Shown here piece by piece: positions 10,801 to 27,049 of a stretch of 50,361 nt of DNA. Under the pieces are notes generated by a model that worked only from the letters and a program-made list of their open reading frames with translations, did no database searches and was not told the origin of the DNA. Both the position numbers and the translations under genes were made by a program. Numbering within the stretch: position 1 is the first letter of the stretch; each line of letters begins with the position of its first letter. The stretch is taken from NCBI GenBank assembly GCA_012519835.1, contig JAAYPJ010000006.1, forward strand, positions 1 through 50,361, given 5' to 3'. This DNA comes from Clostridiales bacterium (GTDB taxonomy: Bacteria > Bacillota > Clostridia > Peptostreptococcales > Natronincolaceae).

Positions 10801-11337
10801 CGATCTTACAACCCGCATGCCCCTTCCGCCACCACCGGTGGCAGCCTTTAGCATGACCGGATACCCGCAATGATCAGCAAATTCTATCAGCTCTTTTTCG
10901 GAAGTAATGGGTTTTTCTACACCGGGTATTGTCGGCACATTTGCTTCCCTCGCTATCAATTTAGACCTGATCTTGTCTCCTAACTTTTTGATCGTCTTAT
11001 AAGAGGGACCAATAAACACGAGCCCGGCTTTTTCACATTTTTGTGCAAACTCCGGATTTTCGGATAAAAATCCGTATCCGGGATGAATAGCATCTACACC
11101 CTTTTTCAATGCTAAACTGATTATTTCCTCAATATTTAAATATGCTTCTATAGGGCCCTTATTTCTTCCTATCAAGTAGGACTCATCCGCCTTTGTTCTA
11201 AAAAGAGAACGTTGATCCTCATTGGAATAAACCGCCACGGTTCTGATACCCAATTCACGACAAGCCCTGAAGACCCTGATAGCAATTTCTCCCCTATTTG
11301 CTACCAATATACGTTTAAATTTCTTTATGCCCATCAT
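7888..11337 (-). CDS. pyc: Pyruvate carboxylase
   Basis: This single-chain biotin enzyme of about 1149 residues carboxylates pyruvate to oxaloacetate with ATP and bicarbonate. From the N terminus it has a biotin carboxylase domain (RILVANRGEIAIRVFRA, GGGGRGMRVV, EVNPRIQVEHT; about 5-455), a carboxyltransferase domain (LLTDTTMRDAHQSL, HLHTHDTTGNG; about 530-800), a linking domain, and a biotinyl domain with EAMKMET whose Lys1113 should carry biotin. The frame runs on to 11403, but AAGGGGGGGTG sits just before the ATG at 11337, and that start gives the usual length. It lies 129 bp after the isocitrate dehydrogenase gene. It would supply oxaloacetate to the citrate synthase upstream. Pyruvate carboxylase of Listeria and Lactococcus is inhibited by c-di-AMP as protein; whether this one is cannot be told. 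Confidence 0.97.
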   Translation of the reverse strand: MMGIKKFKRILVANRGEIAIRVFRACRELGIRTVAVYSNEDQRSLFRTKADESYLIGRNKGPIEAYLNIEEIISLALKKGVDAIHPGYGFLSENPEFAQKCEKAGLVFIGPSYKTIKKLGDKIRSKLIAREANVPTIPGVEKPITSEKELIEFADHCGYPVMLKAATGGGGRGMRVVRSEEKLVEAFNSAKSEAKKAFGNDDIFVEKYLKAPKHIEVQVLGDEYGNIVHLYERDCSVQRRHQKLIEFTPAICLSDEKREEICEDALKIARAVNYKNAGTVEFLLDAYGNHYFIEVNPRIQVEHTITEVVTGIDIVQNQILIAQGYSLDSPKIGIKSQKDIIPRGYAIECRITCEDASNEFLPSIGRVDVYRTSSGPGIRLDGGSGFTGSEIGPYYDNLLVKVTSSSRTFEDAIRKSIRSLTESKISGVKTNVGFLVNVLNHETFIRGEANTGFIENNPELFDIKPQSDRELKLLRYIGEKVVNETKGIKKEYDIPVVPYVTRPENQYGTKQILDNEGPEGLVRWIKNQDKLLLTDTTMRDAHQSLMATRLRTIDMARISKATSVLAGDFFSIEMWGGATFDASYSFLGESPWERIEILRERIPNILFQMLLRSSNAVGYKNYPDNVIREFIRESAETGIDVFRIFDSLNWLKGMEVAIDEVLKTGKVAEACMCYTGDILDTKRDKYTLQYYVNLAKEIEKTGAHILGVKDMSALLKPYASQKLIKALKDEISIPIHLHTHDTTGNGVATVLMAVDAGVDIADVAISSMSGLTSQPCLNSVVAALENTSRDTKMNTDDLQKLSHYWSAVRPLFEQFESDLKSATAEIYKYEIPGGQYSNLKPQVDSFGLGHRFDEVKEMYKTVNEMLGDIIKVTPSSKTVGDLAIFMVQNDLNPENIYERAKDMTFPESVVDYFKGMLGQPSGGFPKRLQDIVLKGETPIVVRPGELLEPEDFDAIAKHLKEKYNMNPNRKDLLSYALYPKTYEGYLDFINEYGDLSRMGSDIFFHGLYEGETCEVEIAEGQALIVKLQEIGKLDNEGNRTVVFEVNGNRREVKIFDKASRVIGTDEKMFTQMADPENKFEIGATIPGVVVKILVKEGEKVDKNQSIILLEAMKMETNITAPVAGIVDSILVRETQQVKVGELLIRLKEK

Positions 11338-11466
11338 TTTCACCCCCCCTTTCGCAGAAACAAAAAGATGTTTCAAAACCGCTGAAAAAATCCTGTGTTG
11401 CACTATTTAAAATCCAACAAAAATTATACTTTTTCAGTAACCCTAAAACATCCCCCGCCCTTATAA

Positions 11467-12465
11467 TTACATGTTTGTTATAACTGCATCTGTAAATTCA
11501 GTAGTGGACAATTTACCACCTATATCTATTGTACGGCTTTCACTATTTTTTAGCGTATCTCCCAAGGCCTTTTCAATTTTAAGCGCTGCCTCAGCCTCAT
11601 CAATATATTTCAACATCATTGCTCCTGAAAGTATGGCCGATATGGGGTTTGCTATATTCTTACCCGCAATATCGGGGGCTGAACCATGAACAGGCTCGAA
11701 TATGGCAAAATCGTCCCCTATATTGCCACTGGGGGCGATTCCCAATCCCCCAATCAGTCCGGCACCCAGATCAGATAAAATATCCCCATATAAATTTGGT
11801 GCTACGATAACCGAAAAATTCTTCGGGTTCATAACCATTTTCATTGCCATAGCGTCCACAATTATATCCTCAAATTGAATATCTTTGTAATTATCAGCCA
11901 CCTCTTTTCCCGTCTTCAGAAAAAGTCCGTCTGAAAGTTTCATGATATTGGCCTTGTGCGTAAGAGTTACCTTTTGTCTTTTCTCCCGCCTTGCAAGTTC
12001 AAACGCAAAATTGCATATTTTAAGACTGGCAGCCCTGCTTATTATTTTAATGCTCTGTGCTATGTTATCGTTAACCATAAATTCTATACCTGTGTATAAG
12101 CCTTCTGTATTTTCTCTTACAACGACAAAATCTAAATCCTTATATAGAGAATCTATGCCATCAAATGATTTTATAGGTCTTATGTTGGCAAATAATTTAA
12201 AATGCTGCCTCAACGCGATATTTATACTTCTGAAACCGGTGCCAATCGGTGTTGTAAGCGGTCCCTTTAAAGCGATTTTATTTTTTTCTATGCTCTTTAT
12301 TGTTTCATCCGGCAATGGATTGCCATACTTTTCATATGTTGAAAATCCTGCTTCCTGTCTGTCCCATGCTATTTTAACACCTGTTGCTTCTATTATTTTA
12401 ACTGTTGCATCTATAATATCTTTTCCTATTCCATCTCCATCGATTAAGGTGATTGTCCTGTTCAT
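11467..12465 (-). CDS. Isocitrate dehydrogenase, isocitrate/isopropylmalate dehydrogenase family
   Basis: This 332-residue beta-decarboxylating dehydrogenase has LIDGDGIGKDI at the N terminus, LKGPLTTPIGTGFRSINIALRQ, the substrate-binding arginines in LFANIRPIKSF, VRENTEGLYTG, a KANIMKLSDGLFLK segment, and EPVHGSAPDIAGKNIANP near the C terminus. The length fits the short bacterial NAD-type enzyme. The family also includes 3-isopropylmalate and homoisocitrate dehydrogenases. Position directly after citrate synthase and aconitase argues for isocitrate as substrate, giving 2-oxoglutarate. The ribosome site CAGGAGGTAAAAT fixes the start. A 137-bp gap rich in repeats separates it from the aconitase gene. 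Confidence 0.9.
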   Translation of the reverse strand: MNRTITLIDGDGIGKDIIDATVKIIEATGVKIAWDRQEAGFSTYEKYGNPLPDETIKSIEKNKIALKGPLTTPIGTGFRSINIALRQHFKLFANIRPIKSFDGIDSLYKDLDFVVVRENTEGLYTGIEFMVNDNIAQSIKIISRAASLKICNFAFELARREKRQKVTLTHKANIMKLSDGLFLKTGKEVADNYKDIQFEDIIVDAMAMKMVMNPKNFSVIVAPNLYGDILSDLGAGLIGGLGIAPSGNIGDDFAIFEPVHGSAPDIAGKNIANPISAILSGAMMLKYIDEAEAALKIEKALGDTLKNSESRTIDIGGKLSTTEFTDAVITNM

Positions 12466-12554
12466 ATTTTACCTCCTGTGATTTGTAGTTAGTCAGGGGT
12501 TAGGGGTCAAAGAATCTCCTTTCCCACAAAGATAGAAATCAGTTAGCCAGGGGT

Positions 12555-12626
12555 CCAACCAACTGACTAACTGATTGACTAACTGTCCAACTATCTAACT
12601 GACTAATCGGTCAACTGTCCGACTGT
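12555..12626. repeat. Degenerate 8-bp tandem repeat reaching into the aconitase 3' end
   Basis: About eight or nine units of an octamer near CTAACTGA (variants CCAACTGA, CTAACTGA, CCAACTAT, TCAACTGT, CCGACTGT) run from the gap into the aconitase gene. The last codons of the gene (V-G-Q-L-T-D-stop) are encoded by it. A related array occurs at 27198-27266. Just upstream, 12486-12555 has two imperfect copies of a TTAGYCAGGGGT segment. Confidence 0.7.
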
Positions 12627-14534
12627 ATTTAAAAGTCCCCCGTTCCTTAGTATATCAGCATGCCTTTTTGTTATATCTAAATTCATGATATATTGTAAAT
12701 TTTTTGTTTTGTTTAAAACTATCATTTCTCCGGAATCTATACCGGAAAGAACATTCTTGATCTCCAACTCATCAAAAACATCTATTGTCAAATAATCATC
12801 ACTATTTCTGAATGTTAAAGGCATAATTCCATTGTTTATAAGATTATTCTTATGAATTCTCGCAAAGGATTTAGCCATAACAGCTTTTATGCCCAAATAT
12901 AGCGGGGCTAATGCCGCATGTTCGCGACTGGACCCTTGCCCATAATTTAAACCGCCAACTATTATGCCGCCACCATATTTTTTAGCGTTTGCTGCAAAGT
13001 CCTTATCAATTTGATTGAAACAAAATTCCGACAGATAAGGTATGTTTGACCTGTATGGAAGCAAATGCGCATTTGAAGGCATAATATGGTCGGTAGTTAT
13101 TCCATCCCCTACTTTTATTAAAGTTTTCCCCGTAATTGAATTTTCTAACGGTTTGTTTTTAGGAAACGGTTTTATGTTTGGTCCGCGTATTACTTCTACG
13201 TCTTCGCCTTCCTTGGCCGGTTCGATTATTAAATTATCGTTTATTAAAAATGTGCTCGGAATTTCTATGTTCAGATCCACATCCCTATCAAAATCCTCTG
13301 CCGATGCAATGTAACCCTTTATAGCAGACACAGCCGCTATTTCGGGACTTGCTAAGTAAACGTCCGCTGTTTCCGTACCACAACGTCCTTTGAAATTCCT
13401 ATTGAATGTTCTCAATGAAACCCCACCGGTGCTTGGCGCTTGCCCCATGCCTATACATGGCCCGCAACCGCTTTCCAATATTCTTCCACCTGCGCCTATA
13501 ATTTTGGCTAATGCCCCATTTTCGGATAACATGGTGAGTACCTGTTTAGAACCGGGGGATACTACCAAGGAGATATTTTCATTTATAGTCCTTCCGTCTA
13601 ATATATTTGCAACTTTCATTAAATCCACAAAAGATGAATTTGTACAACTTCCGATAGCCACCTGAGTAAGCTTAGTGCCTCTCACTTCCCTTGCAGGAAC
13701 CACTGCATCGGGAGAATGAGGACAGGCAATCATCGGTTCCAATTTATCTAAATCTACATCTACAATCTCATCATATACAGCATCTTCATCTGCCGATAAT
13801 GGTGTGTAATCCTTCTCCCTTCCCTGTGCTTTCAGAAACGCCAATGTGTTCTCATCGGATGGAAAAATTGAGGTTGTAGCCCCAAGCTCCGCTCCCATAT
13901 TGGTTATTGTGCCTCTCTCCGGCACAGAAAGACATTTCACACCTTCCCCGGCATATTCAAATACTTTATTTACCCCGCCTGCAACCGTGCACTTTCTGAG
14001 TACCTCCAAAATTATGTCTTTGGCGCTGGTATAGCCACTTAGTTTACCTTTTAAATTTACTCTGACAACCTTGGGGGTTTGTATATAGTATTCCCCACCT
14101 GCCATAGCTACGGCCACATCCAGTCCCCCTGCTCCTATTGCAATCATACCTAACCCACCACAAGTTGGCGTATGGCTATCGGAGCCAAGCAATGTATCGC
14201 CCGGCACTCCAAACCTCTCCAAATGTACCTGATGGCATATGCCGTTACCCGGTTTTGAAAAATATATGCCATGTTTCTTTGCAATAGTTTGGATATATAA
14301 ATGATCATCCGCATTTTCAGGACCCGACTGTAACATATTATGATCTATATAGGCTACAGACAGCTTTGTCTTTACCCTGTCTACATTCATGGCTTCAAAT
14401 TGTAAATATGCCATAGTACCTGTTGAATCCTGGGTCAACGTTTGGTCTATTTTTATCCCTATCTCCTCACCAATACCATATTCACCGCTGACTAAATGGT
14501 TTTTTAATATCTTTTCCGTCAAAGTCATTCCCAC
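12603..14534 (-). CDS. Aconitate hydratase
   Basis: This [4Fe-4S] hydro-lyase of about 643 residues interconverts citrate and isocitrate. The three cluster cysteines are visible in IGSCTNSS (Cys297) and GCGPCIGMG (Cys357, Cys360). LLGSDSHTPTCGGLG (about 115-130) and the swivel-domain motif GGLNYGQGSSREHAAL are also present. It is the short, mitochondrial-like aconitase type. The open frame begins at 14543, but GGAAGAGG lies eight bases before an in-frame GTG at 14534 that gives the N terminus MGMTLTEKIL, a family-typical start. An ATG at 14528 is a second choice. The last six residues come from an 8-bp repeat array. It lies 15 bp after the citrate synthase gene. Confidence 0.93.
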   Translation of the reverse strand: MGMTLTEKILKNHLVSGEYGIGEEIGIKIDQTLTQDSTGTMAYLQFEAMNVDRVKTKLSVAYIDHNMLQSGPENADDHLYIQTIAKKHGIYFSKPGNGICHQVHLERFGVPGDTLLGSDSHTPTCGGLGMIAIGAGGLDVAVAMAGGEYYIQTPKVVRVNLKGKLSGYTSAKDIILEVLRKCTVAGGVNKVFEYAGEGVKCLSVPERGTITNMGAELGATTSIFPSDENTLAFLKAQGREKDYTPLSADEDAVYDEIVDVDLDKLEPMIACPHSPDAVVPAREVRGTKLTQVAIGSCTNSSFVDLMKVANILDGRTINENISLVVSPGSKQVLTMLSENGALAKIIGAGGRILESGCGPCIGMGQAPSTGGVSLRTFNRNFKGRCGTETADVYLASPEIAAVSAIKGYIASAEDFDRDVDLNIEIPSTFLINDNLIIEPAKEGEDVEVIRGPNIKPFPKNKPLENSITGKTLIKVGDGITTDHIMPSNAHLLPYRSNIPYLSEFCFNQIDKDFAANAKKYGGGIIVGGLNYGQGSSREHAALAPLYLGIKAVMAKSFARIHKNNLINNGIMPLTFRNSDDYLTIDVFDELEIKNVLSGIDSGEMIVLNKTKNLQYIMNLDITKRHADILRNGGLLNTVGQLTD

Positions 14535-20265: not shown

Positions 20266-20292
20266 TTAGCACTCAATTTGATTGAGTGCTAA
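20266..20292 (-). promoter_or_regulatory. CIRCE operator (HrcA binding site)
   Basis: TTAGCACTC, nine bases, GAGTGCTAA: an exact match to the CIRCE consensus. It lies between the htpG promoter and start codon. Confidence 0.97.
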
Positions 20293-20451: not shown

Positions 20452-22428
20452 TTATCCAATGAACCTGTCAATTAAATTTAGTCTAAAGTCTTGTCCAAAA
20501 TATTCTTGTGCATATTTTAAGTCCAGAGATATTATCCCGTTTGCCGCCCCTTTCTGAACATAAGAAGGCAACTCCCCAACCATCCTGTTGGCTTCATGAT
20601 AGTCCCCTATGTCTATGGTTAATGTATTTGATTTTTTATCTACCTTAAACACTTTGGGATTAGACTCCCATATGTTAAAAATCCTTTGTTTTATACCCTG
20701 TTCAGCCAAGGTTTCAAAATAATAATCAAGTTTTAATTTAACCACCCAATCCGGGATTTCACCCAGATAAAATTTATGAATAATATCCCTGATTATACCA
20801 GAAGATAAAGTGAATATATCCGGTGCTTCCTTATTGTCATCAGCCAGGTCTTCTATTAAAAAACAGATCTCTTTTATCATTCTTCTCAAGTATTCCCTGT
20901 AAAAAGCGGTCCCTATATTTTTTTGGGTCGTTATTACCAGGGCCCCTTTCATTGCTTTCATCTTCGGTAGACTGGCATTTATATTGCAAATTACCATTCT
21001 TTTGGATAATTCATTTTCTATGACCTTTACATCTTCGTTCGCACTGATCGCTATTGCGGAGAAACTCTCGGCGATATGTGAATCATCTTTTATCAGTTCA
21101 ATTCCGTGGTTTCTGAATCTTGTATTGTTCAAGTCATCTATTACTATCGGAAATCCCCGCATTTCTGTCCTCAGGTTGTATATTGAAGACTTAGTAAATT
21201 CTTTAGCCGGCAGTATTGCTTTTTTCCCCACCATCATAATCATCAGGGTTTCTAATAGTTTTGTTTTACCCGCATTGCTTTTTCCATATAACAGTCCGAA
21301 TACCGGATAGGGTGTTATAGGTTTATTATATAAAGTCGCATAATTTCTGATAATGGACATAAATGGGGATACAAAAAACCAGTTGGTAAATGCATAGTAT
21401 TTGTTTATCGCATCTTCCGTGTTACCGAGAAAGGTGTTAAAACCATCGAAATAATTAATAAACAAATTTACATCGTTTGTAATTTCTCTTGATTCGGGGT
21501 TCAAATCTAAAGGTTCACCATCCAGTATTATTTCACCATTTTCTATATCTATCTCCAGTTCCGGTGTTTTTCCTTCGATAGCATCCTTTTCTATCTCTAT
21601 CTGTTTCATCTTTCTTATCATTTTTTTTATTTCACTATGATTTAAAAGTATATTACCTGACCCGGAAGGCCTCGGTACAATATCCTTATACCTTTGCCTG
21701 ATATTTTCATGATTTATTGAAATAATCCTATCGGGATCATTTGCCGTTTCTTTTTCCGTTTCTATCACAACAACTTTATCGGTCTTTTGAACATTTGATA
21801 TAATAGGGATGTTTTCAATATCCGCATCCCCGGCCAATATAATAGCTTCCTTGCTTATGGCGTCCGTGTTCTCGGATTTCATTTTATCATATTCCATAAA
21901 AAATTCGTTATATACCTTGTCCCCATTTAACACGTAAATATTCCCCGGTTGTTCCCCCGAAAACGCCATGCTTAATAGGTTTGCCGAACCGGTTATAACC
22001 CTTGGTTCTGAATCCCCTCCTTTTAACAAATACATCTTCTTATGTGAAATTTTGTTCCGCATTAAAAGTAGCCTTAAGGTCCCGTTATCCATCCTGTTTA
22101 GGAATCCTTTTTCCTTTTTACCAAAGACAGACCTTAACCTTTCCAGGGTCGACTGTTGATATGCCATTATATCATCCAAACCCTTTAAAACCTTGTCGGA
22201 TCCGAACATTATTTCAATTTCTTTAAACATTGGGATCAGTCTGCTAACAAAATCTATCGATGAAGGATGGGTAACCGCATACAACGTAGAATATCCGTCA
22301 AACAATTCTTCCCAATTTGAAATCTTTGAACTTATATACTCCATATTCATTATTTTTATTTTCTCTATATTTGATAAAGTCTCATATTCCCCGTCGAACA
22401 TGGATAATAAGCCTGCATTTTCATTCAT
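20452..22428 (-). CDS. PLD-type nuclease / P-loop ATPase fusion protein, uncharacterised
   Basis: I do not recognise a named family for this protein of about 658 residues. An N-terminal phospholipase-D-like domain (about 30-185) carries one HKD half-site: His129 and Lys131 in HKKMYLL, then Ser148 and Asn150 in GSANLL. The usual Asp is not in place, as in PLD nucleases attached to some helicases. A charged middle follows (about 190-320). A P-loop ATPase domain (about 370-490) has Walker A GKSNAGKTK (Lys388, Thr389), Walker B FPIVIDDLNN (Asp431, Asp432), a possible sensor AIAISANED, and an arginine in ELSKRMVICNI resembling SF3 or AAA+ ends. The C terminus (about 500-658) is unassigned. Start: GGAG eight bases before the ATG at 22428. 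The gene stands alone between htpG and nnr. Confidence 0.75.
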   Translation of the reverse strand: MNENAGLLSMFDGEYETLSNIEKIKIMNMEYISSKISNWEELFDGYSTLYAVTHPSSIDFVSRLIPMFKEIEIMFGSDKVLKGLDDIMAYQQSTLERLRSVFGKKEKGFLNRMDNGTLRLLLMRNKISHKKMYLLKGGDSEPRVITGSANLLSMAFSGEQPGNIYVLNGDKVYNEFFMEYDKMKSENTDAISKEAIILAGDADIENIPIISNVQKTDKVVVIETEKETANDPDRIISINHENIRQRYKDIVPRPSGSGNILLNHSEIKKMIRKMKQIEIEKDAIEGKTPELEIDIENGEIILDGEPLDLNPESREITNDVNLFINYFDGFNTFLGNTEDAINKYYAFTNWFFVSPFMSIIRNYATLYNKPITPYPVFGLLYGKSNAGKTKLLETLMIMMVGKKAILPAKEFTKSSIYNLRTEMRGFPIVIDDLNNTRFRNHGIELIKDDSHIAESFSAIAISANEDVKVIENELSKRMVICNINASLPKMKAMKGALVITTQKNIGTAFYREYLRRMIKEICFLIEDLADDNKEAPDIFTLSSGIIRDIIHKFYLGEIPDWVVKLKLDYYFETLAEQGIKQRIFNIWESNPKVFKVDKKSNTLTIDIGDYHEANRMVGELPSYVQKGAANGIISLDLKYAQEYFGQDFRLNLIDRFIG

Positions 22429-25573: not shown

Positions 25574-27049
25574 CTAGGTGCCACAAAAAGTTCGATAAGG
25601 ACGGGAAGTCGGTTCAGGCAGTTCGGAATATTCGGCCTGCTCGGGGGAATGGGCATATGGATTTGAAAGAGCATCGAGAAATCGTTCCATAACACTGTAA
25701 TCCTCCTGTTCCTCTGCAGCCTCCAATGCGGCTTCTACCCTATGATTACGGGGAATCAATGCAGGATTTGAGTCTTTCATAAGTTCATGGGACAAATCTT
25801 TTGATTCTTCCTGTCTGCCGAGTCTATTTTGCCACGAGTCATACCATCCTGAAAACTCTACAGACTCAAACAAGGCTGTATCTTCAAATTCATCGAAAGT
25901 TAACGCCAAAAAGGTATTGGTATAATCGGCGCTATATTTATGCATAATTCCGAGAAGTTCCTCCATAAAGGCTCTGTCTTCCGGTTCCTCATCAAATATT
26001 CCCAATTTTGCCCTCATTCCTGACAGCCAATTGTGGTTATACAGCTTGATGAATTCTTTGATAGCGTCCTGAGAAAGCTTTATGGCCTGTTCCTTGTCAT
26101 CATGCAACAAAGGCAACAAGGTCTCAGCAAATCTGGCAAGGTTCCACAACCCGATATATGGTTGATTATTATAGGCATATCTCCCATAAACATCAATAGA
26201 ACTGAACACTGTTTTCGGATCATAGGTATCCATAAAAGCACAAGGCCCGTAATCAATGGTTTCCCCACTGATTGTCATATTATCCGTATTCATCACACCA
26301 TGAATAAAACCTACCAACTGCCATTTAGCAATCAGATCGGCTTGGCGCCTAATCGTTTCTTCAAGCAGGAAAAGATAGGGATTCTCACCAATATTATTAT
26401 CCGAAAAATGTCTTTGCAGTGTATAATCAGCTAGAGCCCTAAGATCCTCAACAGTACCCAGGTTTGTGGCATATTGGAATGTACCGACACGCAGATGACT
26501 GCCGGCTACCCGTGTTAAAATTGCTCCGGGTAATTCAGTTTCCCGAACTATCAACTCACCGGTTGTTACTACCGCCAAACTGCGAGTAGTCGCAATACCC
26601 AGAGCATGCATGGCTTCACTGATTATATATTCCCTCAACATTGGCCCCAGTGCCGCCCGTCCATCTGCATGGCGGGAATAGGGAGTCCTGCCCGATCCCT
26701 TCAGTTGAATGTCAACTCTTTCACCCTCGGGAGTGATCTGTTCTCCGATCAGCATGGCCCTGCCGTCCCCCAACACGGTAAAGTATCCGAATTGGTGCCC
26801 TGCATAAGCCTGTGCAATAGGAAGGGAGCCATCCGGGATTTGATTGCCGGCAAGTATTGCAACACCTTTTTTGCTCTGTAAATCATGAACATTCAGTCCC
26901 AGGGATTCTGCCAACGAATGATTGAGAATTATCAGTTCCGGCCGGCGTACCGGGCTTAAGTCCAGGCTTGAAAAAAATAATTCGGGCAAACGGGCGTAAC
27001 TATTCTCCAGTCTCCATCCTGATTCTGCTTTTCCTTTTAATTCCGTCAT
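25574..27049 (-). CDS. selO: SelO-family protein adenylyltransferase (YdiU/UPF0061)
   Basis: This 491-residue pseudokinase-fold protein has the family landmarks [76 protein letters not shown] and DYGPCAFMD. SelO proteins move AMP to Ser/Thr/Tyr of redox proteins. The C terminus ends FCGT, with Cys489 where eukaryotic SelO has selenocysteine. The ribosome site is AAAAGGGAG. Base composition looks visibly richer in G+C than neighbouring genes, and codon choice differs, suggesting recent transfer. Confidence 0.95.

Follow-up and report, generated by a model that had tools for sequence, protein, structure and literature searches.

The stretch of DNA analysed here (the window, 50,361 nucleotides in length) contains a gene whose product combines a PLD-type nuclease with an SF3-type ATPase, and the question raised by this locus is whether such a fusion represents an undescribed system acting on DNA and, if so, which kind of work it is likely to perform. 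An earlier, sequence-only reading had described the presence of the two domains in a single gene, and both the motifs and the fold matches reported below support this description.

The gene and its surroundings in the window

The open reading frame noted earlier is real (Table 1) and it is located on the minus strand, which had been left unstated, with the plus strand over the same interval containing stops throughout. The sequence GGAG is present 8 nt 5' of the ATG. Upstream of it lies an NAD(P)HX epimerase/dehydratase-like gene and downstream of it htpG; both are ordinary chromosomal genes and they bear out the remark that this gene stands alone amid housekeeping genes. The GC content of the gene (~0.34-0.36) is like that of the flanking DNA, no convincing direct repeats were found around it, and neither an integrase nor iterons are present beside it.

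Two other features of the window are recorded here. A perfect CIRCE-type inverted repeat (TTAGCACTC-N9-GAGTGCTAA, the HrcA operator) is found at positions 20266-20292, either immediately upstream of the longest-frame start of htpG or overlapping it, and due to this location it suggests that htpG is under HrcA control here and that the true start of htpG lies further downstream. Further, a SelO/YdiU-like gene at positions 25574-27049, with a GC content of up to ~0.46 versus ~0.34-0.39 around it, has possibly been acquired horizontally.

Table 1. Positions of the features of the PLD-SF3 gene in the window, and of the partner gene in the sequenced loci (L numbers) of six divergent relatives.
Feature	Position	Strand	Basis
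Whole gene, PLD-SF3 fusion, 658 aa	20452..22428	minus	ATG at 22428, stop at 20452-20454
PLD-type nuclease domain, ~residues 34-190	21859..22329	minus	Model ma778807abc0f; Nuc/NgoAVII matches; conservation
HxK motif, H129-K130-K131	22036..22044	minus	HxK invariant across 42 members
GSAN, residues 147-150	21979..21990	minus	Invariant across 42 members
Gly162 codon, site of PLD catalytic Glu (BfiI E136)	21943..21945	minus	Glu in 57/59 rows
SF3/MCM-like ATPase, ~residues 287-590	20659..21570	minus	5dgk, 8tch and MCM structural matches
Walker A GKSNAGKT, residues 382-389	21262..21285	minus	G382, G387, K388 invariant
Walker B Asp431-Asp432	21133..21138	minus	D431 in 40/42; D432 in 38/42, Glu in 4
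Asn464, sensor 1 / SF3 motif C	21037..21039	minus	Invariant; putative role, by comparison with SF3 helicases
Arg477, candidate arginine finger or sensor	20998..21000	minus	Invariant; putative role
C-terminal small alpha/beta domain, ~residues 591-658	20455..20658	minus	Model m3bad27c26c56, pLDDT 89
Partner gene, L104	11538-12116
Partner gene, L105	8098-8700
Partner gene, L106	10485-11066
Partner gene, L107	11083-11703
Partner gene, L113	8113-8700
Partner gene, L114	7140-7727

Domain architecture and conserved residues

The protein consists of one PLD half-site, followed by an SF3/MCM-like ATPase and then by a C-terminal part with helical and small alpha/beta portions, the latter of which is possibly a DNA-binding wing. 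The HxK...GSxN motif of the PLD superfamily is present, as are the features of SF3/MCM-like ATPases (viz. Walker A, an acidic Walker B, a sensor-1 Asn, a conserved Arg and a matching fold), and the single P-loop occurs with an SF3-type order of motifs. The residues H129 and K131, GSAN, GKSNAGKT and the VIDD Walker B were located where the sequence-only reading had placed them, and since 42 full-length relatives keep these motifs with little or no variation, they are far above chance. Within these 42 full-length members (inclusive of the window protein), the residues G76, H129, K131, R143 and GSAN147-150, as well as P375, G382, G387, K388, P427, N464, R477, D537 and P621, show no variation.

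In the enzyme BfiI, the complete PLD site is made by two chains, and N125 and E136 are further catalytic residues (PMC4081073). In the intact members of this family, the HxK motif likewise occurs once per chain and therefore a complete PLD site would require two chains, as in BfiI, which lends support to the earlier suggestion that the half-site implies a dimer or a larger assembly.

Predicted structure and fold matches

The AlphaFold2 model of the protein has a pLDDT of 82 and a pTM of 0.59, and in fold comparisons, which had been proposed earlier as a check, both the PLD fold and the SF3/MCM fold were matched. Foldseek searches with the full model identified the SCCmec Cch helicase (5dgk, E 1.9e-6) followed by the NgoAVII R-protein (4rct, E 2.0e-5), with further matches to PrimPol, NrS-1, SV40 LTag and the AAV Rep40/Rep68 SF3 helicases. 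By VIA-align, the hexameric helicases SaPIBov1 Rep (8tch) and Cch (5dgk) both gave a Z of 13.8 over residues ~287-658 (rmsd 6.3-7.1), MCM chains gave Z ~10, and Nuc (1byr) gave a Z of 10.3 with an rmsd of 2.8 over 128 residues; by Foldseek E-value, no PLD protein of the PDB matched better than the NgoAVII R-protein (Z 9.6 in VIA-align). SauUSI (7clg) was matched with a Z of 10.1 but with a poor rmsd of 14.5.

The C-terminal 160 residues had been described as unrecognised, and this holds only in part. When the C-terminal 159 residues were folded alone (pLDDT 89), the best match had a Z of just 5.7 and hence there is no confident fold match for this part by itself; however, inside the whole model, and only there, it aligns end to end with the Cch/SaPI Rep helicases. 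No Pfam match to an SRA or B3 target-recognition domain was found in the protein, and the C-terminal domain is without a confident fold.

Database and literature searches

The window protein matched no Pfam or NCBIfam family at the curated cut-off, and in PHROGs and PADLOC it gave weak partial matches alone. In PADLOC 2.0.0 (2023), these were to AbiLi (4e-5) and mad8 (3e-3), with no full-length match to a named model, and ZacB showed weak matches in 40 of the 42 members (best E 5e-6), a score at the domain level. Residues 200-238, a 39-residue linker, matched Pfam Thiol_cytolysin weakly (E 0.007), below the cut-off, and this match was rejected as due to chance. A PDB sequence search with the single window protein gave no match; when a profile of relatives was used instead, the SCCmec Cch helicase (5dgk) came first, at E 0.002, and PLD-family enzymes came next. 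A name for this family was not found in Pfam, NCBIfam, PHROGs, PADLOC (2023), the PDB or the papers searched, nor did the literature searched contain a paper on a PLD and SF3 fusion, in agreement with the earlier view of the protein as a candidate for an undescribed system.

Distribution and mobility of the family

A search of genome contigs with the single protein returned nothing, and an alignment of relatives (the one of 40% identity mentioned below and plasmid copies) was needed; the relatives were sought in the contigs by PLD-motif patterns, a procedure by which family forms without the PLD motif would be missed. Relatives of the same architecture are present in 54 loci, identified in this manner, and in 19 plasmids, from the phyla Bacillota, Chloroflexota, Acidobacteriota, Actinomycetota, Pseudomonadota, Verrucomicrobiota and others, with plasmid relatives occurring in Acetobacter, Komagataeibacter and Arcobacter. 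The occurrence is patchy: the family is present in 2 of 98 related genomes, among which there was one relative of 40% identity, and in 13 of 398 genomes drawn from the phylum (E <= 1e-10), and a class-level search found five genomes with matches at E < 1e-80. The gene is absent from the same-genus genome G001, which is 83% complete and in which a contig end falls inside the upstream gene and htpG is also absent. No copy was found in 50,697 phages searched with the single protein, or in IMG/VR searched with the alignment of relatives.

In the tree of relatives, the different phyla are intermixed. When pairs of relatives that are ~76-87% identical in DNA were compared, the common block corresponded to the gene and, in some cases, to upstream DNA (83 bp in L018/L019; ~590-750 bp in L020/L025); L007/L061, L023/L042, L013/L014/L015 and L044/L040 have little in common beyond the gene. 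Pairs of this kind show that the gene moves as a one-gene unit, as the sequence-only reading had described it. Split or interrupted copies are seen in L032, L046, L057, L115 and L116, and a Thermus copy (L008) is broken by a transposase gene. Due to the pairwise sharing, the mixed-phylum tree and the broken copies, the observed pattern fits a gene that is gained horizontally, often lost and non-essential.

Near the gene in the window clade, no conserved gene partner was detected. In six divergent relatives, a partner gene of ~195 aa directly follows the PLD-SF3 gene (Table 1); its N-terminus is resolvase-like without the usual catalytic pattern, and its conserved C-terminus is HTH-like (FPxxWEELYxxWE...SSKxFLxxSGLKKATFYNxITEY). 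The Pfam Resolvase model matched one of the five partner genes scanned, and that weakly (0.0014). In one pair of relatives (L113/L114), the common block is the gene together with this partner gene.

The nuclease site of the window copy

The active-site Glu and the Ser/Thr of the PLD site are kept in nearly all relatives but are lost in the window protein. The position of the catalytic Glu, which is also Glu in NucT and in mitochondrial cardiolipin hydrolase (HMMER alignment), is occupied by Glu in 57 of the 59 family rows and by Gly162 in the window protein; similarly, the position after GSxN is Ser in 49 and Thr in 7 of the 59 rows, and is Leu152 here. Based on these two residues, the nuclease of the window copy is probably impaired, with its ATPase motifs intact, although a sequencing error in the assembly may lie behind both changes. 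Judged from its sequence, this copy has probably been weakened or has lost its nuclease activity altogether, and it would be either decaying or working as a DNA motor or clamp only. As its catalytic site looks damaged, this copy is not the best one for testing, Gly162 and Leu152 having been overlooked earlier; the relatives are compact test objects in culturable bacteria.

The window copy may alternatively be a decaying relic with no present function, an explanation that applies to this copy only and which we consider possible but less likely than not. The two altered residues, the rather long branch of this copy (0.91 versus a median of 0.26) and the commonness of broken copies in the family are all consistent with it. 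However, the 658-aa frame is intact and, of 15 highly conserved ATPase and C-terminal positions scored, none deviates (0/15), which together suggest that selection is still acting on the motor. The damaged copy could offer a picture of a barrier that has been lost or has turned into a nuclease-free motor. As a separate observation, in another relative (L103 8560-10563, genome G709) the PLD conservation is also degraded, with 6 of 16 conserved positions changed, and that gene adjoins a DUF262-type restriction gene.

Possible function and alternative explanations

The reading that we prefer, and to which we assign about an even chance, is that these genes form an undescribed, mobile, single-gene PLD-SF3 family of ATP-dependent nuclease-helicases restricting incoming DNA. 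According to it, the ATPase would assemble into a hexamer-like ring, load on DNA and move along it; adjacent PLD half-sites would pair as active dimers in the manner of BfiI and Nuc, with metal-independent catalysis through a phosphohistidine intermediate; and the complex would cut incoming phage or plasmid DNA, so that the gene would act as a one-gene restriction-like barrier. If this is true, the family, which is widespread and encoded by one gene, would bring a ring motor of the replicative type to DNA restriction and represent a new design, as the ATP-dependent restriction enzymes with a PLD nuclease described to date have, to our knowledge, SF2 motors.

A defence role of the family is plausible, and different defence genes were found by PADLOC near some of the relatives, viz. 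Gabija GajA/GajB (L030), DISARM DrmA/DrmB (L106), BrxD with a PD-Lambda-4-like gene (L110), a BrxHI-like helicase (L044), a fused methyltransferase-nuclease (L020), DUF262-type genes (L018, L103) and, on the same strand and starting ~106 bp after the PLD-SF3 gene, a CBASS SAVED-HNH effector with a CD-NTase (L033 12095-14386). However, the search for defence islands around homologues, suggested earlier as a check, revealed no enrichment (10 of 46 loci versus 3 of 18 random stretches, p ~0.47), the control being a small set of shorter, 10-kb stretches of related genomes and the positives being partly picked by eye. That many relatives sit amid housekeeping genes, and that no target-recognition domain is recognised in the protein, also speak against a defence role. 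Near two relatives, McrBC-type gene pairs are also present (L102 5012-8586; L109 11555-15105), with Pfam McrBC confirmed in L102 only. In L102, a CoiA-like gene (11197-12846; Pfam CoiA_nuc) lies near the PLD-SF3 gene, and zinc-ribbon starts like that of this gene occur beside the relatives in L021 and L063.

A different explanation is that the protein is a Rep-like initiator or a mobile-element transposase, in which a PLD site stands where SF3 helicases often carry a fused HUH nickase; the PLD part would nick at an end or an origin, and the DNA would be unwound by the helicase. The nearest folds are indeed those of mobile-element replication helicases (Cch, SaPI Rep), the gene moves singly, some plasmid copies are near partition or conjugation genes and other copies near serine recombinases, and six relatives have the resolvase-like partner. 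Nevertheless, we regard this explanation as unlikely, as the common block of several pairs finishes at the stop codon or close to it, without a conserved terminus, the gene is in single copy in the window genome and in nearly all others, and the Arcobacter and Komagataeibacter plasmids have replication initiators of their own. Iteron-like repeats are present in just 4 of 155 flanks, on which count iterons or an origin were rejected as a trait of the family, and the repeat match in the window (TCATCCTTG) falls within htpG.

The proposal that the protein is a chromosomal nuclease-helicase of DNA repair or recombination, an alternative which the sequence-only reading had also allowed, is in keeping with its helicase-nuclease architecture and with the housekeeping neighbours in the window and in many relatives, but it is weakened by the patchy and cross-phylum occurrence of the gene; with a few percent of the genomes carrying it, in scattered phyla, with copies that have been broken repeatedly and with no link to any repair operon, a repair function is quite improbable. 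It is highly improbable that this single gene forms a rolling-circle-like mobile element of its own, in which PLD has taken over from the HUH nickase of a Rep-like nuclease-SF3 protein and which would move by way of a phosphohistidine intermediate and have no part in defence.

Comparison with known systems

The AAV Rep and HUH-SF3 initiators resemble the restriction-like enzyme proposed here in having a nuclease and an SF3 helicase in one chain (Rep40/Rep68 matches), but their nuclease is an HUH tyrosine nickase and not PLD. In Mokosh, PLD is paired with another helicase class. A PLD-like domain is shared with Mokosh and Azaca, both of which are defence systems (PMC10952713), and the weak ZacB matches noted above are a further likeness. 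SCCmec Cch and SaPI Rep function in the replication of mobile elements, which have iteron origins (PMC7581432); they share the SF3/MCM-like ATPase, aligned over ~287-658, but they lack a PLD nuclease domain, and at the window gene there are no iterons and no excisable element with a recombinase and an iteron origin. Druantia DruE is similarly a defence helicase joined with PLD domains, of which one is inactive (PMC13192584), but its helicase is of SF2 type, its PLD part is C-terminal and there are partner genes.

The PLD nuclease domain (4rct match) is also common to NgoAVII and CglI. However, these are two-subunit R2H2 enzymes with a B3 recognition domain and a separate SF2 ATPase (PMC7913695), whereas the protein described here is a single SF3-type chain. 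The nearest working analogue appears to be SauUSI, a single-polypeptide, ATP-dependent and modification-dependent restriction enzyme, in which ATP-driven translocation leads to shredding of DNA by a dimeric PLD nuclease (PMC7913695). The likeness lies in one chain with an N-terminal dimerising PLD nuclease and an ATP-driven DNA motor that restricts foreign DNA (PMC7913695). However, the ATPase of SauUSI is SF2 helicase-like and that enzyme also contains an SRA target-recognition domain, whereas here no SRA domain is recognised and the SF2 ATPase characteristic of SauUSI, NgoAVII and CglI is absent, the fold and motifs being SF3/MCM. Membership of the SauUSI class thus fails on the ATPase, although the protein may still work in a SauUSI-like manner, and this undescribed one-gene nuclease-helicase family is best filed as a new variant among the ATP-dependent PLD nuclease-motor systems.
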